Below, piece by piece: positions 188-63,019 of a stretch of 64,000 nt of DNA. Source of the stretch: an uncultured beta proteobacterium (GTDB lineage Bacteria > Pseudomonadota > Gammaproteobacteria > Burkholderiales > Rhodocyclaceae); contig CAIVQO010000075.1 in the NCBI GenBank assembly GCA_903908065.1, forward strand, positions 1-64,000. Reading direction: 5' to 3'. The notes below the pieces were generated by a model. It was not told the DNA's origin. It saw nothing but the letters and a program-made list of their open reading frames with translations, and ran no database searches. The position numbers and the translations under genes are program-made. The first letter of the stretch is position 1, and each line of letters opens with the position of its first letter.

Positions 188-212
188 CACCGTCCCGTCA
201 GCACCGACTTTC
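188..212 (+). repeat. dispersed 25-base motif, copy 1
   Basis: Intergenic copy, 20 of 25 positions match the window consensus (core GCCAGCGCCGACT with a CGCCGTG arm two bases before it). See the finding on this motif. Confidence 0.45.
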
Positions 213-322
213 CTGCCCTGACGTGATCTCCAACATCGCCGCAAGCCGCCACATCACCCAAAACTCGGCGCCGACCACGCGGCACCCGTAAATAGCCAAT
301 GGCATCCCATCCATCTGACGTG

Positions 323-388
323 ATAGCCCTCGCCTATTTAATCGATTTCAACAATCAATTAGACGATGTCGATTGGCATCATTAATAT
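323..388 (+). promoter_or_regulatory. OxyR-type operator and -10 box upstream of ahpC
   Basis: Tetranucleotides ATAG (323), CTAT (334), ATTT (345) and CAAT (356) are each separated by 7 bases. This fits the OxyR pattern ATAG-N7-CTAT-N7-ATAG-N7-CTAT at 13 of 16 positions. A candidate -10 box TAATAT lies at 383-388, so the operator abuts the -35 region, as expected for an OxyR-activated promoter. The rest of the gene-free stretch 40-434 holds only the palindrome, the direct repeats and one dispersed motif copy. Confidence 0.6.
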
Positions 389-434
389 CCCCTCCATCGC
401 AGCACAACACATCAACCACCCCAAGGAGCACACC

Positions 435-1004
435 ATGAACGCCAGCCTGATCAACACCGAAATCCTTCCCTTCAAGGCGACCGCCTACCACGCCGGCAAG
501 TTCGTCGAAGTCACCGAAGCCACGCTCAAGGGCAAGTGGTCGGTGGTCTTTTTCTACCCCGCCGACTTCACCTTCGTCTGCCCGACCGAGCTGGGCGACA
601 TGGCCGACCTCTACCCCGAGTTCCAGAAGCTGGGCGTCGAAGTATATGGCGTCTCCACCGACACGCATTTCACGCACAAGGCCTGGCACGACACCTCCGA
701 GACCATCGGCAAGATCAACTACCCGATGATCGGCGACCCGACGGGAACGATTACCCGCAACTTCGGCGTGATGATCGAGTCGGCCGGCCTGGCCGAGCGC
801 GGCACCTTCGTCATGGACCCGGCCGGCAAGATCCAGATCATCGAGATCAACGCCGGCGGCATCGGCCGCGACGCCAGCGAGCTGCTGCGCAAGGTCACCG
901 CCGCGCAGTACGTCGCCAAGCACCCCGGCGAAGTCTGCCCGGCCAAGTGGAAGGAAGGCGAAGCCACCCTGGCGCCCTCGCTGGATCTCGTCGGCAAGAT
1001 CTGA
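435..1004 (+). CDS. ahpC: alkyl hydroperoxide reductase AhpC (2-Cys peroxiredoxin)
   Basis: Cytoplasmic peroxiredoxin of 189 aa that reduces hydrogen peroxide and organic hydroperoxides and is recycled by AhpF. The peroxidatic Cys49 lies in FTFVCPTE and the resolving Cys168 in EVCPAKW, as in typical AhpC (about 187 aa). I chose ATG 435 because AAGGAG stands 6-8 bases before it; an in-frame ATG at 366 would add 23 unconserved residues and overlap the promoter. ahpF follows 177 bases downstream. An OxyR-type operator at 323-359 implies peroxide induction. Confidence 0.95.
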
Positions 1005-1015
1005 ACCACAAGCCA

Positions 1016-1080
1016 GTCATTCCGGGCTAGACCCGGAATCCAGCGGTGAATTCCTGGATTCCGGCCTTCGCCGGAATGAC
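1016..1080. repeat. REP-like inverted repeat between ahpC and ahpF
   Basis: Outer arms GTCATTCCGG and CCGGAATGAC face each other, with an inner ACCCGGAATCCAG / CTGGATTCCGG element. This word family (CCGGAATGAC with CTGGATTCCGG) is a common extragenic repeat in beta- and gammaproteobacteria. It could attenuate or stabilise the ahpC transcript ahead of ahpF. Confidence 0.65.
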
Positions 1081-1089
1081 GGCGCAACA

Positions 1090-1116
1090 CCCGCCCCCAG
1101 CAACCCCGGGGGCGGG
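1090..1116. terminator. GC-rich hairpin between ahpC and ahpF
   Basis: Nine-base arms CCCGCCCCC (1090-1098) and GGGGGCGGG (1108-1116) around a 9-base loop. No U-run follows, so it may be a pause or mRNA-stabilising hairpin that sets the AhpC to AhpF ratio, not a strong terminator. Confidence 0.45.
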
Positions 1117-1181
1117 ATTGCAGCGGCAAGGCCACCCACCAGGCGGGCCTTGCCAGTGCAATCCCCACCAAGGAGAAAACC

Positions 1182-2774: not shown

Positions 2775-2797
2775 TCAACAACCTGGGGAGAACCGCC

Positions 2798-3286
2798 ATG
2801 AAAGCCAAAGTCAACGCCAAACCCGACATCGGCATCAGCGACAAGGATCGCGCCAAAATCGCGCAGGGCCTGTCCGGCCTGCTCGCCGACAGCTATACGC
2901 TTTACCTGATGACGCACAACTTCCACTGGAACGTCACCGGGCCGATGTTCAACACCCTGCACGTAATGTTCATGACGCAATACACCGAGCAGTGGAACGC
3001 GCTCGACCTGATCGCCGAGCGCATCCGCTCGCTGGGCCACCCGGCGCCGGGCACCTACAAGGAGTTCGTCAAGCTGGCTTCGATCAAGGAGATCGACGGG
3101 CAACCCAAGGCGCTGGACATGGTGCGCCACCTGGTCGCCGCGCAGGAAGCCACGGCACGCACCGCGCGCAAGCTGTTCCCGCTGGTGGACAAGGCCAACG
3201 ACCAGCCCACCGCCGACCTGCTGACGCAGCGGATTGAAGTCCACGAGAAAACGGCGTGGATGCTGCGCAGCCTGCTTGAGGAGTGA
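2798..3286 (+). CDS. dps: Dps family ferritin-like DNA-protection protein
   Basis: Cytoplasmic mini-ferritin of 162 aa that oxidises Fe(II) with hydrogen peroxide and stores it, limiting Fenton damage; many members also coat DNA. The ferroxidase helix [10 protein letters not shown] (about residues 44-53) and the following [17 protein letters not shown] segment are diagnostic. The lysine-rich N-terminus (MKAKVNAKP) could contact DNA. It starts 23 bases after ahpF with GGGGAG before the ATG, so it probably belongs to the same peroxide-stress operon. A hairpin at 3357-3381 closes the unit. Confidence 0.92.
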
Positions 3287-3324
3287 GCCGAGCAGGCTAG
3301 GGCAAGCCGCGGCGGGCGCCGAAC

Positions 3325-3349
3325 AAAAGTCGGCGCTGATGGCACGGCG
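3325..3349 (-). repeat. dispersed 25-base motif, copy 2
   Basis: Intergenic, minus strand, 21 of 25 positions match the consensus; lies between dps and the peroxidase gene. Confidence 0.55.
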
Positions 3350-3350
3350 A

Positions 3351-5469: not shown

Positions 5470-5494
5470 CGCCGTGCCGCTGGCGCCGACTGTT
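5470..5494 (+). repeat. dispersed 25-base motif, copy 3
   Basis: Intergenic, between oxyR and copZ; 20 of 25 positions match the consensus. Confidence 0.45.
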
Positions 5495-5713: not shown

Positions 5714-8164
<2,451 letters not shown>

Positions 8165-8232: not shown

Positions 8233-8637
8233 ATGAAAAATTCCGGCGAAAGTTTCACGATCGGCAGCCTGGCCAAACAGGCCGGGGTCGGCGTCGAAAC
8301 CGTGCGCTACTACCAGCGTCGCGGCTTGCTGGCCGAACCCACCGCCGCTGGCGGCTACCGCCGCTACGACGGCCAGCACCTGGAGCGCCTGAACTTCATC
8401 AAACGTGCCCAGGGCGTCGGCTTCACCCTGGAGGAGATCGGCGAACTGATGACGCTGAACGACACGCGCGACCACCGCTTGGCGCGGCAACTGGCCGCCG
8501 AAAAGATCGGCAACATCGAGGCGCGCATCGAACAGCTGGGCAAGGTGGCCGATGCGCTGCGCCAGCTGGTACATCGCTGCGAGTGCGGCGGACAAGACAT
8601 GCCCTGCCCGATCATCCGCATGGCGCTGACGCCGTAG
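8233..8637 (+). CDS. cueR: MerR-family metal regulator, CueR-like
   Basis: Regulator of 134 aa with the MerR winged helix-turn-helix (ETVRYYQRRGLL, residues 22-33) and a C-terminal metal loop HRCECGGQDMPCPII with Cys116, Cys118 and Cys125. The dimerisation-helix Cys that mercury and zinc sensors carry is missing (DTRDHRLAR around 77-85), as in copper sensors, yet the loop has three Cys, unlike the two of typical CueR. The divergent neighbour copA makes Cu(I) or Ag(I) the likely inducer. ATG 8233 was chosen because it matches the family N-terminus and follows AAGGGG. Confidence 0.8.
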   Translation: MKNSGESFTIGSLAKQAGVGVETVRYYQRRGLLAEPTAAGGYRRYDGQHLERLNFIKRAQGVGFTLEEIGELMTLNDTRDHRLARQLAAEKIGNIEARIEQLGKVADALRQLVHRCECGGQDMPCPIIRMALTP

Positions 8638-8685
8638 TACCGGCACCGTCCCAGGGGATACCGCTGCGCATAACTTCTGAACAAC

Positions 8686-9398: not shown

Positions 9399-9423
9399 GA
9401 AAGTCGGCGCTGGCACCACGGCG
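9399..9423 (-). repeat. dispersed 25-base motif, copy 5
   Basis: Minus-strand copy between hemN and the TauE-like gene; 23 of 25 positions match, exact 13-base core at 9402-9414. Confidence 0.65.
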
Positions 9424-12140: not shown

Positions 12141-13379
12141 TTACCCCGGCTTGCCATCCAGGCGGGCCCGCCACAGGACCGGGGCGTAGGCCAGGGCCCA
12201 GACGCCGAAGCCGAGCAGCCAGGTCATTGCCGATAGCCACAGAAGCGTCGTCCCGTATCCCTGCATCGGCAGTTCGGCGATGACCCGCAGCGCGGCGGCT
12301 AACTGCATCATGCAAAACGATGCCCACATCGAACCATCCGCCGCCACCGGCCGCCCGGAATGCCCCAGGGTAACCCGCGACACCATGCCGATCAGCATGG
12401 AGGAGAAGAAGCCGATTACCAGCGCATGCAGCGGCGCCTGCCCCAGGGCGCCGGGGGCAAGCAGTCCCGGCAGGTCCTGCAGGGCAAACAGGGCGAAGGC
12501 GATCGGCACCCAGGCAAACGCCAGATGCAGCACCAGCACCATGCGATTGCCGCCGATGGTGCGATGCCACCAGATCCGGCTCAGGTGTCCGCTTGCGACC
12601 AGGGCCGCCAGATCCACCAGCCAGAGCCAGCGCGCGAAATCGAAAAGCGACAGCAGGCCATGCCCCAGGCCTGCCGCTATCAGCACACGCAGCGCCCACG
12701 CCGGCCGATGGACGACGTAGCCTCGGATCACCGCCGAGGTGAAAAACGGCAGCATGCGGTGGGCAACCGTTGCAAACACCGGCAGCAGAAAGCCCCAGAG
12801 GGTCAGCATCGTGCCGACCCGGCCCCACGCCGGGTCACCCGCAAGCGCAAGCAACAGATAGCACGCCAGGCCGATCACGCCCAACCACGCTGCCAGCGCC
12901 ACATAGCGGATATGTTCCCGACTTAGGGCCGGAAGAAGGGCGATCCGGGTCAGGATGCGGGCCACCAGAGCCCAGCCGATGGCGGCCAGCGCCAAGCCGA
13001 ATACAAGCAGCACGGGCAGCAACAACGCCAGCCAGGCCAGCACCCAGCCGCCCGCCAGAAGCAGGAACGGGGGCAGAAACTGCTTTTGCCCGAGGTCACC
13101 GGCCCCCTGCCAGCGCGGGCCCGCAGTCAGGATGAAGCCGAACACGAACCAGGGGAAGACTCCCGAGCCCATCACCAGGGCATGCCAGGTGGTCATCGGA
13201 ATCTGGGTGAGCAAGGGCCACACCGGCAGCGACCAGAGTCCGGCATAATGGCTCCCGATTTGCAAGGACCAGAAGGCCATCGCCAAAAGCGCCTGGACGG
13301 CGCCGCCAAGAAACATCACGCGATGTGGCGCGGCGAAAAAGCTGGCCCGGAAATTCAAGGCCGCCGCACCCATGCGCAT
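12141..13379 (-). CDS. nnrS: NnrS family membrane protein
   Basis: Integral membrane protein of about 412 aa with roughly twelve hydrophobic helices. NnrS is a haem- and copper-containing membrane protein linked to nitric-oxide stress in denitrifiers. Histidines in the helices (HALVMG near residue 62, HRMLPFF near 210, HALVIGFFSSMLIGMVSR near 325) match the family pattern. It lies back to back with a Dnr-type regulator whose start is 38 bases away. Start is uncertain: ATG 13379, 13373 or 13403 are all possible and none has a clear ribosome site. Confidence 0.85.
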   Translation of the reverse strand: MRMGAAALNFRASFFAAPHRVMFLGGAVQALLAMAFWSLQIGSHYAGLWSLPVWPLLTQIPMTTWHALVMGSGVFPWFVFGFILTAGPRWQGAGDLGQKQFLPPFLLLAGGWVLAWLALLLPVLLVFGLALAAIGWALVARILTRIALLPALSREHIRYVALAAWLGVIGLACYLLLALAGDPAWGRVGTMLTLWGFLLPVFATVAHRMLPFFTSAVIRGYVVHRPAWALRVLIAAGLGHGLLSLFDFARWLWLVDLAALVASGHLSRIWWHRTIGGNRMVLVLHLAFAWVPIAFALFALQDLPGLLAPGALGQAPLHALVIGFFSSMLIGMVSRVTLGHSGRPVAADGSMWASFCMMQLAAALRVIAELPMQGYGTTLLWLSAMTWLLGFGVWALAYAPVLWRARLDGKPG

Positions 13380-13417
13380 CCGCTGGCGGCCACCGCAGAC
13401 CACTTACGAGTTTGACA

Positions 13418-14113
13418 ATGCAAGAGACCCGCCTCGACATTCCGCAGATCCTTTCGCGCCTGCCGCTGTTCCAGGAGCTGTCGCCGACCCAGTTGGCCAA
13501 GCTCGAACCGGCGTGTCGCGAGCGCCGACTTTCGAAGGGAACCATGTTGTTCCAGAAGGGCGACCCGGCCAAGGGATTCTTCGTCGTGGTGTTTGGTCAG
13601 ATCAAGCTCGCCTTCCCCTCGGCCCAGGGCAATGAAAAAGTCGTGCAGATCGTCGGCCCGCGACAAAGTTTCGGCGAGGCCGTGATGTTCCTCGACCTGC
13701 CCTGCCCCGTGTTCGCCGAGGCATTGCTCGACAGCCTGCTGCTGCACATCGGCAGCGGGCCGGTATTCGATCTGCTGGAGACGGACCCCTTGTTCGCCCG
13801 GCGCATGCTGGCCGGACTTTCGATGCGGCTGCATTCGCTGGTGCAGGACGTCGAAACCTATTCTCTGCGTTCGTCGGCACAGCGCGTGGTGGGCTACCTG
13901 CTGCAGCACTGTCCGCAAAGCGACGCAGCCTGCGAAGGCTCGTTCGACATTTCGCTGCCGACTTCCAAGCAGGTGATCGCATCGCGCCTGAACCTGACGC
14001 CGGAAACCCTGTCGCGGATTTTTCACGATTTGACGGCCAATGGCTTGATCGCGGTGAGCGGCAAGCAGATCACCATCAATGATGCAAAACGCTTGCGCGA
14101 ATTTGATCTCTGA
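13418..14113 (+). CDS. dnr: Crp/Fnr-family regulator, Dnr/Nnr type
   Basis: Regulator of 231 aa with a beta-barrel sensor domain, dimer helix and helix-turn-helix (SKQVIASRLNLTPETLSRIF). The recognition motif ETLSR predicts an FNR-like TTGAT half-site. It lacks the N-terminal Cys cluster of FNR. Together with NnrS on one side and the hemerythrin operon on the other, this points to the Dnr/Nnr group that senses nitric oxide through haem. ATG 13418 was preferred because the longer frame would run into nnrS. The name is by context; no direct evidence of NO sensing is visible. Confidence 0.8.
   Translation: MQETRLDIPQILSRLPLFQELSPTQLAKLEPACRERRLSKGTMLFQKGDPAKGFFVVVFGQIKLAFPSAQGNEKVVQIVGPRQSFGEAVMFLDLPCPVFAEALLDSLLLHIGSGPVFDLLETDPLFARRMLAGLSMRLHSLVQDVETYSLRSSAQRVVGYLLQHCPQSDAACEGSFDISLPTSKQVIASRLNLTPETLSRIFHDLTANGLIAVSGKQITINDAKRLREFDL
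13509..13533 (+). repeat. dispersed 25-base motif, copy 6
   Basis: Inside dnr, 23 of 25 positions match; it is read in a different codon frame from the copies in queG and waaF. Confidence 0.6.
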
Positions 14114-30356: not shown

Positions 30357-30838
30357 GGGTTTTCCTTGGGAAGTCGCCACTGCTGAATGAGCATCAGGGC
30401 GACGCCGACGGTGATGGCCGAATCGGCCACGTTGAAGGCCGGCCAATGATAGCCGGCCAGGTGAAAATCGAGAAAATCGACCACGGCATCAAAGCGCAGG
30501 CGGTCGATCATGTTGCCCAGCGCACCCGCCAATATCAGCGACACGGCAAGCGGCAACAGGCGCTCGCCTGCATGCTGGCGCAGCAGGCTCAGCAACCAGA
30601 TCGAAATGCCCAGCGCCAGGCTGACGAAAAACCACTTCTGCCAGCCGCCGGCGCCGGCCAGGAAGCTGAATGCGGCGCCCGAATTGAAGACCAGGACGAG
30701 GTTGAAGAAGTCGGTCACCGGACGCAGTTCATGCAAGCGGAAGCTGTCCAGCACCCATTGCTTGCTTGCCTGATCGACCACGATGACCGCGGCGGCAAGC
30801 AGCAGCCAGAGACCCAGGGGCCGCTTGGCGTCAGGCAA
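30353..30838 (-). CDS. lspA: lipoprotein signal peptidase LspA
   Basis: Inner-membrane aspartic peptidase (signal peptidase II) of 161 aa that removes the signal peptide of prolipoproteins. Four helices and the catalytic Asp motifs [18 protein letters not shown] and FNVADSAI are clear. No ATG fits; I propose TTG at 30838, preceded by GAGG at 9 bases and lying inside the end of ileS, 8 bases overlapping its stop codon region. Upstream of this point the frame has no lspA homology. Confidence 0.9.
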
Positions 30839-33629
30839 AGCGACGCGCCTCGCCGGCACCGAACAGGTTCGAGGTGCAGCGGCCGCAGAGTTCCGGATGC
30901 TCGGCGTCGTGACCGACGTCGGCACGCCAGTGCCAGCAGCGAGCACACTTGGCATGAGCCGTCGGCGTCACGGTGATCATCTCGGCCCCTTCATCATCGA
31001 CGCGGATCAGGCTTGCCTTGGAGCAGATCAGCACGAAACGCAGGTCGTCGCCCAGCGATGCCAGCGCCTCGTATTTGCCGCCGGAGGCACGAATCTCGAC
31101 TTCGGCTTGCAGCGAAGAGCCTATCTTCCCGGCCTCGCGTTGCGCTTCCATGGCCTTGGTGACATCGGCGCGCACCCCACGCAGTTGGGTCCACCGTGTC
31201 ACCAGCGCCGACTCTTCGGCCAACTCCGGCAGCGCGTGCCAGGTGGAAAGCATCACGCTTTCTCCATTCTTCGTCACCGACCATATTTCCTCGGCGGTGA
31301 AGGAAAGCACCGGCGCCATCAGGCGAGTTACTGTTTGCAGGATGTGCCACAACGCGCTTTGCGCTGCGCGGCGCGACACCGAATCCGCGGCCGTGGTGTA
31401 AAGGCGATCCTTGAGGATGTCGAGGTAAAAGGCGCCCAGGTCCTCCGAACAGAAATTCATCAGGGCCTGGATCACTTTGTGGAACTCGAAGCGCTCGTAG
31501 TCGGCGGTGCATTGGGCCTGCAGGGCTCGCGTCAGCGCCAGGGCGTAGCGATCCGCTTCCAGCCATTGTTCCACGGGCAGCATCTGCGTCGCGGAATCAA
31601 AATCCGCCGTGTTGGCGAGCAGGAAGCGCAGGGTATTGCGCAGGCGGCGATACACCTCGACGACGCGCGCCAGGATCTCCTTGGAAATCGACAACTCGCC
31701 GGAATAGTCGGTAGCCGCCACCCACAGGCGCAGGATCTCGGCACCCAGGGTATCGGAAACTTCCTGGGGCGCGACGACGTTGCCCTTGGACTTGGACATC
31801 TTCATGCCCTTGCCGTCGACCACGAAGCCGTGGGTCAGCAGGCCCTTGTAGGGTGCGCGGCCGTCGATCGCGGCGCCGGTAAGCAGGCTGGAATGGAACC
31901 AGCCGCGATGCTGGTCCGATCCTTCCAGATACAGGTCGGCCGGATAGTCGCTCGCGGCCGCGTGCGAGCCGCGCAAGACCGTACGATGCGTGGTGCCGGA
32001 ATCGAACCAAACGTCGAGCGTGTCCTTCATCTTGTCGTAGCTCGATGCTTCATCGCCAAGCAATTCCTTGGCGTCAAGGCTGAACCAGCCCTCGATGCCC
32101 TGCTGTTCCACACGCTTGGCCACGGCTTCCAGCAGCTCCAGCGTGCGCGGATGCGGCTCGCCCGTTTCCTTGTGCAGGAAAAAGGGAATCGGCACGCCCC
32201 AGTTGCGCTGGCGCGAGACGCACCAGTCGGGACGGTTGGCGATCATCGCGTGCAGCCGCGCCTGACCCCAGTCGGGGTAGAACCTGGTCGCCTCGACGGC
32301 GGCCAGCGCCGCGTCGCGCAGGCTGGGCTTCTCCGCAGCCTCGCGGCGCTCCATGCCGACGAACCATTGCGTGGTGGCGCGGTAAATGATCGGCGTCTTG
32401 TGCCGCCAACAGTGCATGTAGCTGTGCGTGATCTCGCCGCTGGCGAAGAGGCAGCCAGTCTCGGCGATCTTCTCGATGATCACCGGGTTGGCCTTCCAGA
32501 CGAACATGCCGCCAAAGAAGGGCAGGTTCGCTGCGAATACGCCATCGCCCTGCACCGGGGTCAGGATTTCCTCGTTGCGCATGCCGTGCTTCTTGCAGGA
32601 ATCGTAGTCTTCGAGGCCGTAGGCCGGCGCGCTGTGCACGACGCCGGTGCCGGCGTCGAGGGTGACGTAGTCGCCGAGGTAGACCGGCGAACTGCGGTCG
32701 TAGAAAGGATGGCGGAACTTCACCTGGGCCAGCGCGGCCCCCTTGCAGGCGCCGAGGATGCGGCCGGCGAGCCCATAGCGTTCCAGCGCCGCGGCGCGCA
32801 GCTCGGCGGCAAGGATCAGGCACCCGCGTTCGGTCTGCACCAGTTCGTAGGTGAATTCCGGATGCATGTTGAGCGCCTGGTTGCCGGGAATGGTCCAGGG
32901 CGTGGTGGTCCAGATCACCGTGAAGCAGTCGCCGGCCGGCAGCGTCGCGATGCCGAAGGCATGGGCGATGCGCTCCCGCTCCGAATCATCGAGGCGAAAA
33001 CCGACATCGATCGCCGGCGATTTCTTATCCTGGTATTCCACTTCGGCCTCGGCCAGCGCCGAGCCGCAATCGAAGCACCAGTTAACCGGCTTGAGACCCT
33101 TGAACAGGTAGCCGCGGCGGTAAAGTTCGCCCACGGCACGAATTTCGTCGGCCTCGTTGCCGAAGGCCATGGTCAGGTAGGGATCGTCCCACTCGCCAAG
33201 CACGCCGAGCCGGATGAAATCCTTCTTCTGCCGCGCCACCTGCTCGGTGGCGTAGCTGCGGCAAAGCTCGCGCGCCTTATCGCCCGGCAGGTGCTTGCCG
33301 TGGGTCTTCTCGATCTGGTGCTCGATCGGCAAGCCGTGGCAGTCCCAACCCGGTACATAGGGCGCATCGAAACCGGCCAGGGTCTTGGAGCGGACGATGA
33401 TGTCCTTGAGGATCTTGTTGACCGCATGGCCGATGTGGATGTCGCCGTTGGCATAGGGTGGGCCGTCGTGCAGAACGAAGCGCGGGCGTCCCTTGGTCGC
33501 CTCGCGGATGCGCTGGTACAGCTTGCCGTCCTGCCAGGCCTTGACCCAGGCGGGCTCCCGCTTGGCGAGGTCGCCCCGCATCGGGAAAGGCGTGTCGGGC
33601 ATGTTCAGGGTTTTGCGGTAGTCAGCCAT
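30831..33629 (-). CDS. ileS: isoleucyl-tRNA synthetase
   Basis: Class I synthetase of 932 aa. The HIGH motif is [10 protein letters not shown] (near 65), KMSKS is KMSKSKGN (near 610), and a C-terminal zinc site CARCWHWR...CGRC closes the protein. The editing domain holds [11 protein letters not shown] chose ATG 33629 ([11 protein letters not shown]), which overlaps the ribF stop by 8 bases; the frame is open for 27 more codons without homology. Confidence 0.96.
31192..31216 (+). repeat. dispersed 25-base motif, copy 7
   Basis: Inside ileS, opposite strand; 21 of 25 positions match. Confidence 0.5.
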
Positions 33630-34606: not shown

Positions 34607-35902
34607 TCAATCCAGCCGCGCCAGCTTGGACTTGGCGAGCGGCGGATTCTTGGCGAAATAACGCCGGATGCCCTTGAGGATGGCCTCGGCCATGCGCTCC
34701 TGGTAGGCCTCGTCGTTGAGCCGCGCTTCCTCTTCGGGATTCGAAATGAAGGCGGTCTCGACCAGGATTGAGGGGATGTCCGGTGCCTTCAGCACAGCGA
34801 AGCCCGCCTGTTCGACTTGGGCCTTGTGCAGGGTGTTGATGCGCCCGAGTTCGCCCAGCACGTCCTTGCCCAGTTTCAAGCTGTCATTGATCGTGGCAGT
34901 TTGCGAGAGATCAAGCAGCGTGCGGGCCAAATACGGGTCCTTGACGCCGAGATTGACGCCGCCGACCAGGTCCGCGGCATTCTCCTTGTTCGCCAGCCAG
35001 CGCGCCGCGGAACTTGACGCCCCGGTCTCGGACAGCACGAATACGCTGGAACCGCGTGCCGTGGGCTTGATGAAGGCGTCGGCGTGTACCGAGACAAACA
35101 GGTCGGCCTGTACGCGGCGGGCCTTCGCCACGCGCTGGTGCAACGGGATGAAGTAGTCACCGTCGCGCGTCAGCACCGAGCGCATGTTCGGCGTCGCGTC
35201 GATCTTCTGTTTCAGGCGTCGGGCCACGGACAGCGTGACGTTCTTTTCATGGCTGCCGCCGCGACCGATGGCACCGGGGTCTTCGCCGCCATGCCCGGGA
35301 TCGAGGACGATGGTGACCAGGCGCGTGACGTCGGGCTTTGCATCGGCCTTTTCCGCCTCGGCAGGCGGCGGCTTGTCTCCGGCACGGCCCTCGCCGCCAA
35401 GTTTCGATTCCGCTTTCAGCCCCTTGGGTTCCGCGGGCGCCGACTTTTCCAGCAAGGCCATCAGCGGATCGACCGGCTCGACCGGATAAAGGTCCAGCAC
35501 CAGGCGATGGCCATATTCACCGACGGGCTTGAGGGCAAACACCTGCGGCTTGACCTCCCCCTTCAGCTCGATCACCAGACGCACCACGCCGGGCTTGTTG
35601 CGCCCCGCGCGGATCAGCTTGATGTAGGGGTCGGCGTCGATGATCTTGGTCGGCAGCGTCTGCAGCACCTGGTTGAAATCGACCCCTTCGAGATCGACCA
35701 CCAGGCGCTCCGGATCCTTGACCAGCATCTGCGTGTAGCGGATGGCCTGATCGTTTTCCAGCGTGACGCGGGTGTAGTCGCGCGCCGGCCAAACGCGCAC
35801 GGCCAGCACGCTGGCCATCGCCGTGGCGCCAGCGCCGACTCTCGTGACCAGCAGGGTCAGGCCGGCGGCGGCGTACTTGAGGACCTCACGCCGGCGAGGC
35901 AT
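34607..35902 (-). CDS. amiC: N-acetylmuramoyl-L-alanine amidase AmiC-like
   Basis: Periplasmic cell-wall hydrolase of 431 aa acting in daughter-cell separation. The N-terminus MPRRREVLKYAAAGLTLL looks like a twin-arginine signal, then an AMIN domain (about 35-135), a polar Lys/Glu/Pro linker (about 150-190) and an Amidase_3 domain with zinc ligands in DPGHGGEDPGA, GSHEKNVTL and SVHADAF. It overlaps the end of tsaE by 46 bases, as often seen for this gene pair. Confidence 0.92.
   Translation of the reverse strand: MPRRREVLKYAAAGLTLLVTRVGAGATAMASVLAVRVWPARDYTRVTLENDQAIRYTQMLVKDPERLVVDLEGVDFNQVLQTLPTKIIDADPYIKLIRAGRNKPGVVRLVIELKGEVKPQVFALKPVGEYGHRLVLDLYPVEPVDPLMALLEKSAPAEPKGLKAESKLGGEGRAGDKPPPAEAEKADAKPDVTRLVTIVLDPGHGGEDPGAIGRGGSHEKNVTLSVARRLKQKIDATPNMRSVLTRDGDYFIPLHQRVAKARRVQADLFVSVHADAFIKPTARGSSVFVLSETGASSSAARWLANKENAADLVGGVNLGVKDPYLARTLLDLSQTATINDSLKLGKDVLGELGRINTLHKAQVEQAGFAVLKAPDIPSILVETAFISNPEEEARLNDEAYQERMAEAILKGIRRYFAKNPPLAKSKLARLD
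35819..35843 (+). repeat. dispersed 25-base motif, copy 8
   Basis: Inside the signal-peptide region of amiC, opposite strand; 23 of 25 positions match, exact core at 35828-35840. Confidence 0.65.
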
Positions 35903-36357
35903 GTGCGTCCCCTGGCGCCGGCAGCGAAAATCCGCGCCACGCGTCCATCGCTTGCCGTGCCGGGCGGCACGCGCAATTCAATCTGGATATCTGCTGCAGG
36001 CAGGAAGGGGGCCGCTTTTTCCGGCCATTCGACCAGGCAGATTCCACCGGCTGAAAAATATTCGTCGAGCCCCGCATCGAGATACTCTTCCGCGTGATTG
36101 AATCTATAGAAATCAAAGTGATAGAAGTTTAATCCAGAAACGACGTGAACTTCAACCAATGTGTAGGTCGGGCTCTTTACCGGGCCGCTTTCGCCGGCCG
36201 CGCGCAACAGTCCGCGCACCAGCGTGGTCTTGCCGGCGCCCAGGTCGCCGTCCAGCCAGACCACCATGCCAGGCCTCAGATGCGCGGCCAACTGAGCGCC
36301 CAGCGCAACGGTGGCGGCTTCGTCGGCAAGCGCTAACGTAAGATGATCATCATGCAT
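35857..36357 (-). CDS. tsaE: tRNA threonylcarbamoyladenosine biosynthesis ATPase TsaE
   Basis: P-loop ATPase of 166 aa working with TsaB and TsaD in t6A modification of ANN-decoding tRNAs. Walker A is GDLGAGKTTL (near residue 37), followed by SPTYTLVE and FDFYR. The ATG lies inside the first codons of the divergent queG: the two genes overlap head-to-head by 15 bases. No clear ribosome site precedes it. About 15 C-terminal residues run past the usual length because of the overlap with amiC. Confidence 0.9.
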   Translation of the reverse strand: MHDDHLTLALADEAATVALGAQLAAHLRPGMVVWLDGDLGAGKTTLVRGLLRAAGESGPVKSPTYTLVEVHVVSGLNFYHFDFYRFNHAEEYLDAGLDEYFSAGGICLVEWPEKAAPFLPAADIQIELRVPPGTASDGRVARIFAAGARGRTCLAGVRSSSTPPPA

Positions 36358-37443
36358 GTTCAGGACAAACTCGACGCGACTGGCGCGGCCGACCTAAAGG
36401 AAGACATACGGCGCTGGGGCCGCGAACTGGGATTCGATGCCATCGGCTTTACCGGCCCGGATCTCGGCAATGCCGGCCTCGGGCTTGCCGCCTGGCTGGC
36501 GGCGGGCTGCCACGGCGACATGGATTATATGGCCGCCCATCGCAGCGAGGCCGGTTACAAGCGCGCCGAGCCCGAGCAGCTGCTGCCGGGCACGCGCTGC
36601 ATCGTCACCGCGCGCCTGAATTACCGTGTCGCCAGCGCCGACTCCTGGACAGTGCTCGACGACAGCGAGCGTGCCTTTGTTTCACGCTACGCCCTGGGAC
36701 GCGATTACCACAAGCTGTTACGCCAGCGTCTGCAGAAACTGACGGAGCGCATCGAACAGGCGACAGGCCCATATGCCGCCCGTGTGTTCACCGATTCGGC
36801 GCCGGTGATGGAAGTCGAGCTGGCGCAGAACAGCGGCCTTGGCTGGCGCGGCAAGCACACCCTGCTGCTCGACCGCGACGCGGGGTCGTATTTCTTCCTC
36901 GGCGAAATCTTTACCGACCTGCCGCTGCCGCCCGATGCACCGGTCACTGATCATTGCGGCAGCTGCACGGCCTGCCTCGACGCCTGCCCGACGGCCGCCA
37001 TCACCGAGCCCTACCGGCTCGACGCAAGACTGTGCATCTCCTACCTGACCATCGAGACCAGGGGCGCAATTCCCGAAGCGCTACGGCCACTGCTCGGCAA
37101 CCGCATCTACGGTTGCGACGATTGCCAACTGGCCTGCCCCTGGAACCGCTTTGCGCCACTCACGCGCGAGGCCGATTTCGCTCCGCGCCACGGGCTGGAT
37201 CAGGCGCGCCTCGTCGAACTGTTCGCCTGGACCGAAGCAGAGTTCGATGAACGCCTGGCCGGCTCGCCGATCCGCCGCATCGGCCACGAACGCTGGTTGC
37301 GCAACATTGCCGTGGCGCTCGGCAATTCAGCACGCACCGAGAGCGTGCTGCAGGCGCTGCGCAAGCGCGCCGACGATCCCTCGCCACTGGTGCGGGGCCA
37401 CGTCGCCTGGGCGCTGGCGCGCCACGGGGAAGTCCTGAACTAA
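36343..37443 (+). CDS. queG: epoxyqueuosine reductase QueG
   Basis: Cobalamin- and iron-sulfur-dependent enzyme of 366 aa for the last step of queuosine synthesis in tRNA. Two 4Fe-4S motifs lie in CGSCTACLDACP (near 204) and CDDCQLACPW (near 258), with a C-terminal HEAT-like segment. Start at ATG 36343 or 36352; both overlap tsaE, and no strong ribosome site favours either. The stop overlaps the convergent sulfurtransferase gene by 3 bases. Confidence 0.93.
   Translation: MIIMHVQDKLDATGAADLKEDIRRWGRELGFDAIGFTGPDLGNAGLGLAAWLAAGCHGDMDYMAAHRSEAGYKRAEPEQLLPGTRCIVTARLNYRVASADSWTVLDDSERAFVSRYALGRDYHKLLRQRLQKLTERIEQATGPYAARVFTDSAPVMEVELAQNSGLGWRGKHTLLLDRDAGSYFFLGEIFTDLPLPPDAPVTDHCGSCTACLDACPTAAITEPYRLDARLCISYLTIETRGAIPEALRPLLGNRIYGCDDCQLACPWNRFAPLTREADFAPRHGLDQARLVELFAWTEAEFDERLAGSPIRRIGHERWLRNIAVALGNSARTESVLQALRKRADDPSPLVRGHVAWALARHGEVLN
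36622..36646 (+). repeat. dispersed 25-base motif, copy 9
   Basis: Inside queG, same strand; 20 of 25 positions match, exact core at 36631-36643. Confidence 0.55.
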
Positions 37444-41942: not shown

Positions 41943-42929
41943 GTGAAGATCCTGGTCGTCGCTCCCTCCTGGATCGGCGACACGATCATCGCGCAGCCCC
42001 TGCTGAGCCTGATCAAGCAACGCGATGCGGCGGCGCGAATCGAAGTCTTTGCCGCTGACTGGTCGGCGCCCCTGTTGCGGCGCATGGCCGAGGTCGACGC
42101 CGTCGTCACCAATCCCTTCGGGCACGGCAGCCTGGCCCTGGGCGAGCGACGCGAGATCGGCCGCCGTCTCGCCAGCGCCGACTTTGATGTGGCCTATGTC
42201 CTGCCGAACTCCTGGAAGTCGGCACTGGTGCCGTACTTTGCCGGGATTCCGCAGCGCATTGGCTATCACGGCGAAGCGCGCTACCTGCTGCTGAACCGAC
42301 GCCAGCAGCTGGACAGCCTACGCCACCCGAAGCTGGTGCAACGCTATGCGGCACTGGCCGGGCCACTGCCTGACGTGTTGCCGCAACCGAGGCTGGAATC
42401 GTCGGCCCAGCAACAGCTCGCGGTACGCGAGGCGCTGGGCCTGCCGCGGGACGCAGCGCCGGTGATCTTCTGCCCGGGCGCCGAGTACGGCCCTGCCAAG
42501 CGCTGGCCGGCTGCGCATTTCGCGGCCCTGGCGCGCGAACTCGCCGGCAAGGGCTTGCCGGTGTGGCTGGTCGGCTCGGCCAAGGACGTGGCAGTCGGCG
42601 AGGAGATTTCCCGCCTGTCGTCCGGCGCCGCGCTCAACCTCTGCGGAAAGACAGGTCTGGAACAGGTGATCGACCTGATTGCCGGGGCGCGCGCCGTGGT
42701 CAGCAACGACTCCGGGCTGATGCATGTCGCCGCCGCACTCGACCGGCCGTTGGTGGCGCTCTACGGCTCCTCGTCTCCGGACTACACGCCCCCTTTGTCG
42801 CCCCATGCGAAAATCCTTTCGCGCAAACTCGCCTGCAGCCCCTGCTTCAAGCGCGAGTGCCCGCTGGGGCATTTCGATTGCCTGACGAAGCTCGCTCCGC
42901 AGCAAGTTGCCGCCGCCCTGGAGATGTGA
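41943..42929 (+). CDS. waaF: ADP-heptose:LPS heptosyltransferase II WaaF
   Basis: Glycosyltransferase family 9 protein of 328 aa adding the second heptose to the lipopolysaccharide inner core at the cytoplasmic membrane. Motifs are APSWIGDTIIAQPL near the start, PNSWKSALVPYFAGI, GAEYGPAKRWP and SNDSGLMHVAAAL. Start is GTG 41943; the frame is open to 41832 but that part overlaps the zinc-finger gene. The end contains Cys-rich CSPCFKRECPLGH, usual for the family. Confidence 0.93.
   Translation: MKILVVAPSWIGDTIIAQPLLSLIKQRDAAARIEVFAADWSAPLLRRMAEVDAVVTNPFGHGSLALGERREIGRRLASADFDVAYVLPNSWKSALVPYFAGIPQRIGYHGEARYLLLNRRQQLDSLRHPKLVQRYAALAGPLPDVLPQPRLESSAQQQLAVREALGLPRDAAPVIFCPGAEYGPAKRWPAAHFAALARELAGKGLPVWLVGSAKDVAVGEEISRLSSGAALNLCGKTGLEQVIDLIAGARAVVSNDSGLMHVAAALDRPLVALYGSSSPDYTPPLSPHAKILSRKLACSPCFKRECPLGHFDCLTKLAPQQVAAALEM
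42162..42186 (+). repeat. dispersed 25-base motif, copy 10
   Basis: Inside waaF, same strand; 23 of 25 positions match, exact core at 42171-42183. Confidence 0.65.
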
Positions 42930-47754: not shown

Positions 47755-50379
<2,625 letters not shown>

Positions 50380-50475
50380 GGCGGGGACACTGCCTGCAAG
50401 GTAAAGCAAAGATTTTACGCGAACCGGGCCAGGGACACAGCCCGCCATCGCCCGTCGTCATCCGCGCCGAAAATG

Positions 50476-55593: not shown

Positions 55594-56553
55594 CTATTTC
55601 ACTTCGGCGGCAGCACGCTGCAAACGATCGTTAACCCCCCGCCATGCCTCGTCGACAGGCGGGGCGGCGACCAGGATCAGGTCGCCGCCAAGGGCATCGA
55701 ACTCGCGCAGGCGGGCATAAAGCTCATGGGCATAGGCTCCTGGATCGCGACTGGCTTCGCGCCAGATCAGGTTCGACTCCCTTCGCCCGGGGGATGCCGG
55801 AGCGAAGACCACCACCCGTTGGCCCCGGCCGAGCGCCAGGTCGATGGCCGGGGCGATGGCGTCCGCGGGTAACAACCGCATGGGCGTGGTCGGCGCGTAA
55901 TGCGATTCGAGGCTGCCAGATACGCGAGGTACTGCACCTTCGGCACCGAACGCGGGCACTTCGCCGAGCACCTCGGCCAGCGCCATCGCATCGAGCATGC
56001 CCGGACGCAGGATGCGCGGCATGCCCGACGACAAATCCAGGATGGTCGATTCGATGCCGACCTGGCAGGGGCCGCCGTCGAGGACCATGCCGACGGCCGC
56101 ACCCAGTTCGTCACGCACATGCGCGGCTGTGGTCGGGCTGACATGACCGAAGCGGTTGGCGGAAGGCGCCGCCACGCCACCGGCGAATTCGCGCAGCAGT
56201 TGCAGTGCCAGCGGATGCCTGGGTACACGCAGGCCGACGGTGTCCTGACCACCGGTGATGGCATCGATCACCGCCGGATGCCGTTTGAGTATCAGCGTCA
56301 GCGGGCCGGGCCAGAAGGCAGCGGCCAATCGCCGGGCCGCTTGCGGGATTTCGATGGCCCAGCGCTCGAGATGGCCGGCATCCGGAAGATGCACGATCAA
56401 AGGGTGGTCGGCAGGGCGGCCTTTGGCGGCGAAGACCTTGCCTACCGCGGCGGCGTTGCTCGCATCGGCGCCCAGGCCATACACCGTCTCGGTCGGGAAG
56501 GCGACCAGATCTCCCGCGCGCAGCATGGCCGCGGCGCGGGAAATTTCACTCAT
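55594..56553 (-). CDS. tsaC: L-threonylcarbamoyladenylate synthase (Sua5/YwlC type)
   Basis: Protein of 319 aa with a YrdC domain (FPTETVYGLGADA, KGRPADHPLIVH, SANRFGHVSP) and a C-terminal Sua5 domain. It makes threonylcarbamoyl-AMP, the donor for t6A in tRNA. The longer Sua5 form differs from the short TsaC of E. coli. It overlaps the end of purK by 8 bases and is the last gene of the leftward purine run. TsaE is also in the window (35857). Confidence 0.92.
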   Translation of the reverse strand: MSEISRAAAMLRAGDLVAFPTETVYGLGADASNAAAVGKVFAAKGRPADHPLIVHLPDAGHLERWAIEIPQAARRLAAAFWPGPLTLILKRHPAVIDAITGGQDTVGLRVPRHPLALQLLREFAGGVAAPSANRFGHVSPTTAAHVRDELGAAVGMVLDGGPCQVGIESTILDLSSGMPRILRPGMLDAMALAEVLGEVPAFGAEGAVPRVSGSLESHYAPTTPMRLLPADAIAPAIDLALGRGQRVVVFAPASPGRRESNLIWREASRDPGAYAHELYARLREFDALGGDLILVAAPPVDEAWRGVNDRLQRAAAEVK

Positions 56554-57694
56554 CGCGGATGCCGATCAGTCGCCGTGCCGCCAGCGCCGACTCCTGAACC
56601 TTTTGCGCATCCCCGCCGATCACCGTGAAATGCCCCATCTTGCGGCCGGGACGGGCGTGGTGTTTGCCATAGAGGTGCAGCTTGAGGTTGGGCACCGCCA
56701 GCAGCTGCGCCCAATCCGGTTCCTGGCTATGCTGCGCATCCTTGAGGAACCACAGGTCGCCGAGCAGGTTAACCATGACCGCCGCGGAATGGGCATGGGC
56801 ATCCCCCAGCGGCAGGCCGGTCACGGCGCGCACCTGCTGTTCGAACTGGTTGGTGACGCAGGCGTCGATCGTGTAGTGGCCGGAATTGTGCGGCCGCGGC
56901 GCCATTTCATTGACCAGCAGCTGGCCGCGCACGACAAAGAACTCGACGGCCAGCGTCCCCACGTAATCCATCTTCTGTGCGATGCCTTCGGCGATTTCCT
57001 CGGCATTGCCGGCCAGGCAGCCGGAAGTGCGCGCCGGCACCATGGAGACATCGAGGATGCCGTGGCGATGGCTGTTCTCGACTGTCGGAAAGCACTTCAC
57101 CCGGCCGGTGGAATCGCGCGCCAGGACAACGGAAACCTCGTAGTCCAGGGGCATCATCTGCTCCAGCACGCACGGCTCGTTCTTCAACTGGCCGAAGGCA
57201 ACGCGCGCGGCATCGCGGTCGGCGACGCGAACTTGGCCTTTGCCGTCATAGCCAAAGCGGGCCACCTTGAGGATGCCGGGAAACAGCCCGGCGTTCGCCG
57301 AATCAAGGTCGGCGTCGCTGCGGATGTCGGCATAAGGTGCATGGGGAAAGCCATGCTGGCGCAGGAATCCCTTTTCGGCGCTGCGATTCTGGCTGATGCG
57401 CACCGCCTCCGCCCCCGGCCGCACCGGAACGAATTTGGAAAGGTAGGCCAGGCTGTCGGCCGGCACGTTCTCAAATTCCGTGGTTACCGCCGCACAGGAC
57501 TCGGCGATCACATTGAGCGCATCGGCGTCATCGTAAGCCGCCACCAGATGGCGGTCGGCAATGCGTCCGGCGGGGCTCTGTGCATCGGGATCGAGCACCA
57601 CCACGCGGTAGCCCAACTCGTGCGCGGCGATGACGAAGAAGCGGCCCAACTGGCCGCCGCCCAGCATGCCCAGCGTCGCCGGTGGCAAGATCAT
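56546..57694 (-). CDS. purK: N5-carboxyaminoimidazole ribonucleotide synthase PurK
   Basis: ATP-grasp enzyme of 382 aa that carboxylates AIR in purine synthesis. Motifs are LGMLGGGQLGRF near the start, EFENVP, KVARFGYDGKGQ and NEMAPRPHNSGHYT. It starts 4 bases after purD. Its partner purE, usually adjacent, is not in the window. ATG 57694 matches the family start; the longer frame overlaps purD. Confidence 0.94.
   Translation of the reverse strand: MILPPATLGMLGGGQLGRFFVIAAHELGYRVVVLDPDAQSPAGRIADRHLVAAYDDADALNVIAESCAAVTTEFENVPADSLAYLSKFVPVRPGAEAVRISQNRSAEKGFLRQHGFPHAPYADIRSDADLDSANAGLFPGILKVARFGYDGKGQVRVADRDAARVAFGQLKNEPCVLEQMMPLDYEVSVVLARDSTGRVKCFPTVENSHRHGILDVSMVPARTSGCLAGNAEEIAEGIAQKMDYVGTLAVEFFVVRGQLLVNEMAPRPHNSGHYTIDACVTNQFEQQVRAVTGLPLGDAHAHSAAVMVNLLGDLWFLKDAQHSQEPDWAQLLAVPNLKLHLYGKHHARPGRKMGHFTVIGGDAQKVQESALAARRLIGIRDE
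56571..56595 (+). repeat. dispersed 25-base motif, copy 12
   Basis: Inside the 3' end of purK, opposite strand; 21 of 25 positions match, exact core at 56580-56592. Confidence 0.6.
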
Positions 57695-58969: not shown

Positions 58970-60553
<1,584 letters not shown>

Positions 60554-60569
60554 GGAAACCTCGCAGGGA

Positions 60570-60800
60570 TTAAAGCAGTTTGTGTTCGACCAACATGCGG
60601 CGCAGGGTGCCGCGGCTGATGCCCAGCATTTCGGCGGCGACGGTTTGGTTGCCGTCGGCCTGCTTCATCACGACTTCCAGCATCGGTCGCTCGACGCACT
60701 TCAGCAGCATGTCATAGACGGCATGCGGCGCCTGGCCGTCGAGATCGCGAAAGTAGCGATTCAGGGTCCGCCGCACGCAGTCGTGGATTTCGCTGCTCAT
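60570..60800 (-). CDS. fis: Fis, nucleoid-associated DNA-binding protein
   Basis: Protein of 76 aa with a Fis helix-turn-helix at the C-terminus: [20 protein letters not shown]. It bends DNA and regulates stable RNA and recombination. The dusB-fis order is the classic one; its ATG overlaps the dusB stop (ATGA). It is shorter than E. coli Fis (98 aa), which is normal in betaproteobacteria. Confidence 0.93.
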
Positions 60801-61819
60801 GCGGCCTTCATTGCCTGGGAGTCGTCAGGATGGCGCAGGCGCTCATTGGCCGCGCCGTGCCCAAGGAAGAACTCGTCGGCGGCGGCCAGCTGTTCTTCCA
60901 CCGTTTGCAGCTGGTTCATGGCGTGGCGGAAGTTCGCCGAACCGACCAGGCCCTTGGTGTACCAGCTGATGTGCTTGCGCGCGATGCGGACGCCGGTTTC
61001 CTCGCCATAGAAGGCGTAGAGCTCGTTCAGGTGGCCGCGCAGGATGTCATGGATTTCCTGGACGTCGGGGGGCGCCATCTCTTCACCGGTGGCCAGGAAA
61101 TGCTCGATCTCGCGAAACAGCCAGGGACGTCCCTGGGCGGCACGGCCAATCATGACGCCGTCGGCGCCGGTGTAGTCGAGTACTTCGCGCGCCTTGCGCG
61201 GCGTAGTGATGTCGCCGTTGGCTATCACGGGAATCCTGACCTGCGACTTGACCAGCGCAATGGTGTCGTATTCAGCGTTGCCCTGATACTGGTCGGCGCG
61301 CGTGCGGCCATGGATGGCAATGGCACGCACGCCGGACTCCTGGGCGATGCGCGCGATGGTCGGCGCGTTGCGGTTTTCGCGATTCCAGCCGGTGCGAAAC
61401 TTGAGCGTGACCGGAACCTCCGGCACGGCGGCCACCACGGCTTCGAGAATCTTCGCCACCAGCGCTTCGTTCTGCATCAGGGCCGAACCCGCCATGACGT
61501 TGCAGACCTTCTTCGCCGGGCAGCCCATGTTGATGTCGATGATCTGCGCGCCGTGGTCCGCGTTGTAGCGCGCCGCCTGGGCCATCATGGCCGGGTCGGC
61601 ACCGGCGATCTGCACCGACACCGGATCCGCTTCACCCTCGTGGTTGGCGCGCCGACGCGTCTTGGCGCTGCCGTAAAGCAGGGAATTCGAGGTCACCATT
61701 TCCGATACGGCGAGGCCGGCGCCAAGCCGCTTGCACAGCTGGCGGAAGGGTCGATCCGTGACCCCGGCCATGGGCGCGACAAACAGCATGTTGCGCAACT
61801 GAAAGCCGAGGAATTCCAT
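60797..61819 (-). CDS. dusB: tRNA-dihydrouridine synthase DusB
   Basis: FMN enzyme of 340 aa reducing uridine in the tRNA D-loop. Motifs are VAPMAGVTDRPFR, DINMGCPAKKVC (catalytic Cys), KFRTGW and IHGRTRADQY. Coupled to fis by a 4-base overlap. The 102 bases between dusB and ubiH hold no other gene. Confidence 0.95.
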   Translation of the reverse strand: MEFLGFQLRNMLFVAPMAGVTDRPFRQLCKRLGAGLAVSEMVTSNSLLYGSAKTRRRANHEGEADPVSVQIAGADPAMMAQAARYNADHGAQIIDINMGCPAKKVCNVMAGSALMQNEALVAKILEAVVAAVPEVPVTLKFRTGWNRENRNAPTIARIAQESGVRAIAIHGRTRADQYQGNAEYDTIALVKSQVRIPVIANGDITTPRKAREVLDYTGADGVMIGRAAQGRPWLFREIEHFLATGEEMAPPDVQEIHDILRGHLNELYAFYGEETGVRIARKHISWYTKGLVGSANFRHAMNQLQTVEEQLAAADEFFLGHGAANERLRHPDDSQAMKAA

Positions 61820-61921
61820 GTCGGGAAGGAAAGGGGAAAGGGAGTGTTTCGCGGAGGGCGCGATTTTAGCGCAAAGCGCGCAGCCCGATATCGACGCTTT
61901 TTATGGCCGACAGCCGTCGGA

Positions 61922-63019
61922 TCAGGGCCAGGCGCGGGCGCCGAAGATCATTCGCCGGGCGACGAATCCGCGCAACGGGGGAAGGATGTCCATGGCCAGC
62001 AGGCCGGCGCCGCGCAAGGTCCGCAGCGGTCCGAATTCATTGCCGAAGCCATGGATCAGCAGGTCAGTGAACCCGATGGCGCCGCGCCGGTCCGCCATCC
62101 GCCCGCGGGCATAGGCAGCAAGCCGCTCTGGGGCACCGGGATCGTCGGCACCGCTCAAGCTGGTAGCAAGTTCCCAGATGTCGCGCAGGGCCAGGTTGAA
62201 TCCCTGGCCCGCGACCGGGTGTAGGGTTTGCGCGGCATTGCCCAGCCAGACCTGGCGCGCGCCCACCGGGTGTGGGCGATAGCGCAAGCCCAGCGGGTAA
62301 GCCACGCGCGGCGTCGTCGCGAGGAAACGGTGCCGGTTGCCGAAACGCCGTTGCAAGAAGACGAGGAACTCCTCGTCGTCGAGCCCGCGCACCCAGTCCA
62401 GAATTTCGTCCTGGCAGGTCAGGACCACAGAATAACTATCCCCCAGGGGCAGTAGCGCCAGCGGACCCTCGCCGGTAAATCGTTCCCAGGCCACGTTGCG
62501 ATGGGGTTCGGCCGTCCGCACATTGCACAACACGGCATGCTGCCCATAATCTCGCCGCTCGCCGGCATCGGGATCCACCGCGCCCTCAGCGTAGGCCGTC
62601 AGGGCAAAACCCGCCGTGTCGCCAGCGCCGACTTTGGTCTGTTCCCGGTAGGGAATTCCAGTCCGCGACAATGCGGCGTCCAGTGCGGAAATCACCTCAC
62701 TTGCCGCCACCACCCAACCCAGGGCCTCCACACCCTGCTCCTCGGCGCGAATCAGGGTGCGGCCAAATCCATGACGCTGCGAGACATGGATGGTACGGAT
62801 GGCAGTCGCCGAACTCGCTGGCCAGGCGCCCAGCCAGCCCAGGATCTGGCGCGCACCTTCCGATAGGGCGAGCACCCGGGCATCCTTGCGCACCGCGCTG
62901 CGGTCACGCGCCTCGAATATTTCCGCTTCCAGCCCATGCAAGCGCAGAGCCAGCGCGAGCGCCATACCCGCCGGCCCGCCGCCGACTATCGCAATTCGTC
63001 TGTCAGCCGTTTCGGGCAT
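61922..63019 (-). CDS. ubiH: UbiH/UbiF-family ubiquinone biosynthesis hydroxylase
   Basis: FAD monooxygenase of 365 aa. The dinucleotide motif is IVGGGPAGMALALAL at the start, and GNAAQTLHPVAGQGFNLALRD near residue 250 is the UbiH/COQ6 signature. The exact ring position it hydroxylates cannot be read from sequence. Its start overlaps the pepP end by 17 bases, the frequent pepP-ubiH pair. Confidence 0.9.
   Translation of the reverse strand: MPETADRRIAIVGGGPAGMALALALRLHGLEAEIFEARDRSAVRKDARVLALSEGARQILGWLGAWPASSATAIRTIHVSQRHGFGRTLIRAEEQGVEALGWVVAASEVISALDAALSRTGIPYREQTKVGAGDTAGFALTAYAEGAVDPDAGERRDYGQHAVLCNVRTAEPHRNVAWERFTGEGPLALLPLGDSYSVVLTCQDEILDWVRGLDDEEFLVFLQRRFGNRHRFLATTPRVAYPLGLRYRPHPVGARQVWLGNAAQTLHPVAGQGFNLALRDIWELATSLSGADDPGAPERLAAYARGRMADRRGAIGFTDLLIHGFGNEFGPLRTLRGAGLLAMDILPPLRGFVARRMIFGARAWP
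62612..62636 (+). repeat. dispersed 25-base motif, copy 13 (best match)
   Basis: Inside ubiH, opposite strand; 24 of 25 positions match, exact core at 62621-62633. Confidence 0.7.

Follow-up and report, generated by a model that had tools for sequence, protein, structure and literature searches.

A dispersed motif of about 25 bp in a Rhodocyclaceae genome and its relatives as a probable uptake-type sequence of natural transformation

Thirteen copies of a 25-base motif in a 64-kb window

The first 64,000 nucleotides of contig CAIVQO010000075.1 from an uncultured member of the Rhodocyclaceae (assembly GCA_903908065.1), hereafter called the window, carry a dispersed DNA motif of about 25 letters, approximately CGCCGTgtCGCCAGCGCCGACTTTc, which surrounds a core of 13 bases, GCCAGCGCCGACT. 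An original prediction, made from the letters of the window alone, had listed 13 copies, nine in genes and four between genes. All 13 could be read at the predicted positions, and a scan with the consensus CGCCGTnnCGCCAGCGCCGACTTT (up to 4 mismatches in 22 positions) returned the same 13 and none further (Table 1). The division between genes and gaps agrees with the gene calls. The exact core was found at the seven predicted places, compared to a mean of 0.01 per shuffle in 100 shuffles, which is in line with the predicted chance expectation of far less than one. An Rfam scan of the window identified three tRNAs only.

Table 1. Copies of the motif in the window, with their gene context and their occurrence in aligned genomes of the genus.
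Feature	Position	Strand	Context	Detection or structure	Aligned genomes
Motif copy	188..212	+	intergenic	25-mer read and consensus scan	
Motif copy	3325..3349	-	intergenic	25-mer read and consensus scan	
Motif copy	5470..5494	+	intergenic	25-mer read and consensus scan	
Motif copy	6581..6605	+	antisense, heavy-metal P-type ATPase gene 5714-8164 (-)		
Split (long-form) copy	8630..8678	+		degenerate left half 8630-8648, 24-bp insert 8649-8672, right end from 8673	
Motif copy	9399..9423	-	intergenic	exact core and consensus scan	
Motif copy	13509..13533	+	sense, Crp/Fnr-family open reading frame 13325-14113 (+)		
Motif copy	31192..31216	+	antisense, ileS-like gene 30831-33629 (-)		site in 16 of 21, 4 of the remaining 5 uncovered
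Motif copy	35819..35843	+	antisense, N-acetylmuramoyl-L-alanine amidase (amiC-like) gene 34607-35902 (-)		site in 19 of 21
Motif copy	36622..36646	+	sense, queG 36343-37443 (+)		site in 10 of 21
Motif copy	42162..42186	+	sense, heptosyltransferase (waaF-like) gene 41943-42929 (+)		site in 16 of 21
Motif copy	48733..48757	+	antisense, alaS 47755-50409 (-)		site in 17 of 21
Motif copy	56571..56595	+	antisense, purK-like gene 56546-57667 (-)		
Motif copy	62612..62636	+	antisense, FAD-binding (FAD_binding_3) gene 61922-63019 (-)		long form at the aligned site in two relatives

Abundance and shape of the motif

In the window's own genome (G000), a draft of 3.84 Mb, 240 exact cores were found (125 and 115 on the two strands) while the reversed pattern was not found at all. 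The full motif occurred 558 times at up to 3 mismatches (294 and 264 by strand), again with none for the reversed control. The copy number is therefore far above background, and the strong over-representation of a single motif is what would be expected of an uptake sequence. A sample of 462 kb, consisting of the window and stretches of three contigs of G000, contained 78 sites at up to 4 mismatches compared to one in the reversed sequence, which corresponds to about one copy per 6 kb. Beyond approximately 26 bp the information content of these 78 sites falls below 0.3 bit. The short motif was predicted to fold no better than shuffled sequences (z 0.57).

The genome and the motif are both rich in G+C and the copy number rises with the GC content (Spearman 0.47), as it would if chance or codon usage had made the motif. 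The probability of this explanation is negligible, since it is already refuted by the controls (558 copies against none), 178 of 199 genomes of the family have just 0-10 copies, and the motif occurs in two reading frames and on both strands. A depletion in foreign DNA was also considered and rejected: copies are absent from 11 five-kb intervals with less than 60% GC, which is not evidence because the motif itself is GC-rich, and the four proteins scanned in the gap between 13.5 and 31.2 kb of the window were PhaC, a FixG-like protein, COX1 and a metal ATPase.

Strand and chromosome distribution

Eleven of the 13 copies in the window lie on one strand, which had been taken as a sign of chromosome polarity. 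This bias turned out to be local, as the genome-wide ratio is 294 to 264, and adjacent copies in four stretches of G000 are on the same strand 37 times and on opposite strands 37 times. The mostly-plus pattern in part of the window was seen again in most relatives because many of the sites are orthologous. In a relative with a complete chromosome (G002), twenty samples of 20 kb gave 37 plus and 41 minus copies, with at least one copy in every sample; by position, the ratio was 15 to 16 at 0.2-1.8 Mb, where the GC skew is mostly positive, and 22 to 25 elsewhere. For a further genome (G223) the full list of 93 sites is divided 54 to 39, with the orientations intermixed along the chromosome and 17, 11, 14, 17, 15 and 19 sites per half megabase (the last bin being shorter). 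A strand skew per replichore, of the type known for Chi and KOPS (FtsK-orienting polar sequences), was thus found neither in the G002 samples nor in G223. The absence of a general orientation bias in G000, the G002 samples and G223 is a property expected of uptake sequences, and there is no support for the suggested polar signal of segregation or recombination.

The motif could also be a chromosome-organising or recombination signal that a nucleoid, segregation or repair protein reads in both orientations. All 20 samples of G002 carry copies, and the region at approximately 1.0-2.2 Mb (G002:C1, L475-L481), where the GC skew changes sign, is sparser, with 16 of the 78 sites in seven of the 20 samples where about 27 would be expected, a deficit that was noticed post hoc. 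The lack of polarity in G002, in G223 and among the adjacent pairs of G000 argues against a signal like Chi or KOPS. These are short, polar, genome-wide motifs read by DNA-processing proteins; the present motif is likewise genome-wide, but it is far longer and unpolarised. We consider such a chromosome signal unlikely.

Coding context

Of the 78 sites in the 462-kb sample, 54 are located wholly within called genes (30 antisense, 24 sense), 19 are intergenic and five lie at gene edges. As intergenic DNA makes up 31.6 of the 462 kb, the motif is about 4.8-fold denser there. Two of the three reading frames are in use, whereas the third is nearly empty (2 of 54 as called). The gene caller was home-made and wrongly gave the copy at 13509 to an open reading frame on the minus strand; correctly, this copy is sense in a Crp/Fnr-family frame, apparently in the rare reading frame, and is not so counted in the numbers 30, 24 and 2. 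The observation that copies are mostly antisense to their gene holds for six of the nine coding copies in the window and becomes weak beyond it, since 30 to 24 is not a clear bias. That protein sequence does not explain the motif was confirmed, as codon constraint fails to account both for the use of frames and for the one-base dialect described below.

The higher density between genes would suit a global transcription regulator that binds to the motif. However, 54 of the 78 copies are wholly inside called genes, and approximately 560 asymmetric sites of 25 bp would be unusual for one regulon, so that this role is very improbable.

For the uptake sequences of Haemophilus influenzae, PMC2346458 quotes 65% in open reading frames, although about 86% of the genome is annotated as coding, and states that a general orientation bias was not observed.

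Origin of copies at homologous sites

Twenty syntenic regions from the same genus were aligned to a 19.7-kb stretch of the window, and five coding sites among those in Table 1 were compared (ileS-like, amidase, queG, waaF-like and alaS), where the motif is shared by 10 to 19 of the 21 genomes. Four rows are uncovered at ileS; at alaS the row of G017 is uncovered and that of G007 hardly covered. Where a row lacks the motif, the difference mostly consists of substitutions, for example in the amidase gene of G017 with 7 mismatches and no gap, and at the amiC-like and queG sites 21 of 21 rows are gapless. Exceptions among the sites listed are waaF, with extra bases in three genomes, and one further site near the end of ileS, missing from G000, where the alignment contains many gaps.

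Third codon positions were identical in a fraction of 0.82 within the motif and 0.66 in the flanks (38 and 470 positions, respectively; G017 excluded), and none of 20,000 resamples was as high; the choice of sites carried by G000 biases the comparison towards this result. The possibility raised beforehand that orthologous genes keep the same bases by codon constraint did not hold, given the use of frames and the one-base dialect. At these five sites, copies arise mostly by substitution in place at homologous codons. Uptake sequences would be expected to arise in place, to be tolerated in genes and to be enriched between them, and this was found here, the in-place part for five sites of a single 19.7-kb stretch.

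A small insertion family copied into its present sites, such as repetitive extragenic palindromic (REP) elements, miniature inverted-repeat transposable elements (MITE) or Correia-like elements, could account for a motif that is conserved, dispersed and sharply bounded, and the gappy alignment at the additional site near the end of ileS, which G000 lacks, fits to it as well. For the short form, however, presence or absence as an insertion was not observed at the five coding sites, where genomes lacking the motif mostly align without gaps or indels. The information content below 0.3 bit outside approximately 26 bp and the folding at the level of shuffles also stand against it. An insertion origin of the motif itself, one of the roles suggested originally, is hence unsupported and highly improbable. 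REP elements and REPINs are dispersed repeats at the level of lineages, a property shared by the present motif, which also has a rare long form with a small hairpin-like insert. In contrast to them, copies of the main motif are for the most part not insertions, lie mostly within genes and fold no better than shuffled sequences.

A one-base dialect

In the alignment, G001 and G027 read CAACT in place of CGACT at several loci. The corresponding word GCCAGCGCCAACT was found in 305, 338 and 387 copies in G001, G016 and G027, compared to 0-6 copies in the other 28 genomes of the genus, and the standard core is limited to 42, 56 and 51 copies in the same three genomes. G001 and G027 are sisters in the regional tree, which was midpoint-rooted and does not include G016. 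Lineage-specific dialects are expected of uptake sequences, and here a dialect differing by one base is carried by three of 31 genomes. That hundreds of sites switched one base in concert implies a DNA recogniser acting in trans, which would be needed to move so many sites together. Any trans-acting DNA-binding protein would suit such a switch, including that of a chromosome-organising signal.

Distribution among genomes

Within the genus, 25 of 31 genomes contain 124-438 cores, and the remaining six contain 12-93. In 199 genomes from 68 genera of the family, a 15-base core was present in 50-401 copies in 21 genomes of six genera and in 0-10 copies in the other 178, with 0-1 in the controls. 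Outside the family, 48 genomes of the same order have 0-8 cores. Carriers among the matches listed include entries of Sulfuritalea, Sulfurisoma, Rugosibacter and Propionivibrio and many metagenome-assembled genomes (MAGs) of Rhodocyclaceae; the few other labels among them may belong to misnamed MAGs. The cultured strain BSN1 of Sulfurisoma sediminicola has at least two matches that are exact over 20 positions. Local clusters of cores were seen in motif-poor genomes (G159:C1 1461274-1502266, G207:C148, G132:C50 and G133:C104), which would represent imported DNA or MAG contamination. Furthermore, five motif copies, 316-385 bp apart, follow downstream of lambda-like siphophage tail genes on one contig (L176, 883-2239).

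G017, with only 12 cores, is the sister of the 317-copy genome G007 in the midpoint-rooted regional tree, and so the motif was probably lost in G017. At up to 4 mismatches, 25 sites were found in G025 (control 1) and five in G017 (control 0). Among the top contiguous 10-mers enriched in G017 (312 kb) and G025 (380 kb), no motif of comparable strength was detected that could be a replacement dialect, and a gapped or weak dialect could escape this search; the top words that were viewed came largely from a tandem repeat of the GGCGCAGA type. Tandem CGCAGAGGCGCAGAG repeats are present in both genomes (L436, L443, L369 and L365).

A long form with an insert of 24 or 27 bp

The split copy at 8630 belongs to a rare long form, in which the motif is interrupted between GCGCCG and ACTTT. 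The long-form word GGGGATACCGCTnCGCATAA (up to 1 mismatch) was found 0-20 times per genome in the 31 genomes of the genus and at least once in 28 of them, with a control of 0. Of 62 distinct contexts 61 were scored, and the insert was 24 bp long in 41, 27 bp in 19 and 23 bp in one. The left half has up to 5 mismatches in 17 positions in 53 contexts and more in eight. These contexts (including L370-L399 and L400-L429) are not independent, since part of them come from loci retrieved because of the motif, and part are mutually orthologous. The reading frame of the long form would vary from gene to gene.

At five aligned sites (62612 of the window, waaF, the ileS end, L355/L367 and L376/L384), other genomes carry the motif without the insert; many other pairings of orthologues were too poor to judge. 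At these five the long form is present or absent as an insertion, as described for REP and MITE elements. The insert ends in GCTTCGCATAA, which we take to resemble the XerC arm of dif. Three folds of the long form as single-stranded DNA gave z values of -0.02, 1.51 and -1.49 and did not support a hairpin.

Two additional arrangements were observed. A second insert of about 12 bp (TTrAGGGGCAATG or AGAAAAATGCGG) is located left in the motif at L354, L359, L351 (waaF) and at L355, L367 and L364, and it could combine with the right insert into a longer stem. Upstream of the long forms at L381, L383 and L421 lies a word similar to GCGAAGCGGAaTCCC, which nearly repeats the tail of the insert in inverted orientation, an arrangement like a REP pair.

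These findings could be taken to mean that the motif is mainly the empty site that a small mobile hairpin module, either REP/MITE-like or tyrosine-recombinase-like, uses as target or for attachment. The near-constant insert length (24 or 27 bp in 60 of 61 contexts), the left half recognisable in 53 of 61, the five insert-free sites and the presumed XerC-arm-like end are in favour of such a module. However, 0-20 long forms per genome are faced by mostly hundreds of short ones, and a target site alone explains neither hundreds of copies made by substitution nor a genome-wide dialect. As an account of the motif as a whole it is very unlikely.

Competence genes and receptor candidates

The machinery examined comprised ComEC and the minor pilins. 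ComEC could be identified in 30 of 31 genomes of the genus, one of the 30 having no more than a fragment at the end of a contig, and the exception is a draft of 79% completeness. G000 contains two minor-pilin clusters (operons), each with a pilin of the ComP_DUS family above the Pfam cut-off, and one of them also has a pilin with a GspH domain. No tested pilin tracks the motif. Pilins gathered from 23 loci fall into several unrelated clusters. Loss of ComEC is not supported as a cause of the motif-poor state of G017, since the gene is present there as an open frame of 808 aa.

Discussion

Of the three roles originally put forward, the polar signal and the insertion family were not supported, while an uptake-type sequence is indirectly favoured by the abundance of the motif, its origin in place, its dialect, its restriction to few genera and the presence of ComEC and minor pilins. 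From sequence comparison, the motif is probably, at odds of about two in three, an uptake-type recognition sequence of natural transformation, with an origin independent of the DNA uptake sequences (DUS) of the Neisseriaceae and the uptake signal sequences (USS) of the Pasteurellaceae. A pattern that mostly arises in place, and that is unpolarised, enriched between genes and dialectal, resembles that of uptake sequences.

The nearest precedent is given by the dialects of the DUS, where species differ by one or few bases and each genome mainly uses one dialect, as described in PMC3630211. Like the DUS, which is recognised by the receptor ComP, the present motif has many near-exact copies and one-base dialects, mainly one per genome. 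It differs in being unrelated in sequence, in its length (about 25 bp compared to approximately 10-13 bp), in its lower density, in apparently belonging to another family and in its receptor, which is only putative. None of the described DUS 10-12-mers or close variants were seen in the consensus when compared by eye. With the USS, it shares a long sequence in which a strong core is combined with weaker parts, a lower share in open reading frames and no general orientation bias. In contrast to the USS, its consensus is GC-rich and contains neither AAGTGCGGT nor ACAAGCGGT, the two versions of the 9-base core; AT tracts were compared up to 15 bases downstream. The known work considered here also includes PMC12616744 and PMC1939737. 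In the open-licence literature, no paper with the letters of this motif and none on an uptake sequence in Accumulibacter or the Rhodocyclaceae was found, and the titles and opening lines of abstracts among the matches listed show no motif of this kind in the family.

In an uptake system of this kind, the motif would be bound by a DNA receptor on the cell surface, with a minor type IV pilin as the most likely candidate, and fragments that bear the motif would be taken up preferentially. ComEC and the minor-pilin genes would offer a plausible route for this. Biased uptake followed by homologous recombination could then spread near-perfect copies by molecular drive. If the specificity of the receptor changed, the copies of a genome would shift together to a new spelling, as may have happened in G001, G016 and G027, or would otherwise decay, as perhaps in G017 and G025.

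Several points weigh against an uptake sequence. ComEC is not diagnostic, as it was also matched in 10 of 14 control genomes, and G017 has kept it, yet has only 12 cores. ComP_DUS-family pilins are present in 68 of 74 genomes (G000 and relatives) with or without the motif, a strong match to the C22 GspH pilin was obtained in just eight of 31 genomes of the genus, and the competence genes compared were limited to ComEC and minor pilins. We know of no counterpart of the rare split form in DUS or USS. The sparser zone of G002 could also be produced by a chromosome-organising signal. One copy per 6 kb is sparser than the Neisseriaceae counts in PMC3630211, and PMC2346458 reports one orientation to be commoner in reading frames in all of its genomes, compared to 30 to 24 here.

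An extended version, which we regard as a doubtful conjecture, would see in the motif a third, independent DNA-uptake language, probably of the Rhodocyclaceae, with dialects, whose words also serve as the landing site of the 24- or 27-bp modules at GCGCCG^ACTTT, possibly through single-strand hairpin recombination on incoming DNA.

To our knowledge, sequence-tagged DNA uptake has so far been described in only two other bacterial families. If the uptake role is true, the motif would be a third case, unrelated in sequence and found in environmental bacteria, and would suggest that such tags evolve repeatedly. The natural one-base switch between dialects could then be used for finding the receptor and for testing molecular drive, and the motif would indicate that genes are often exchanged within these lineages.

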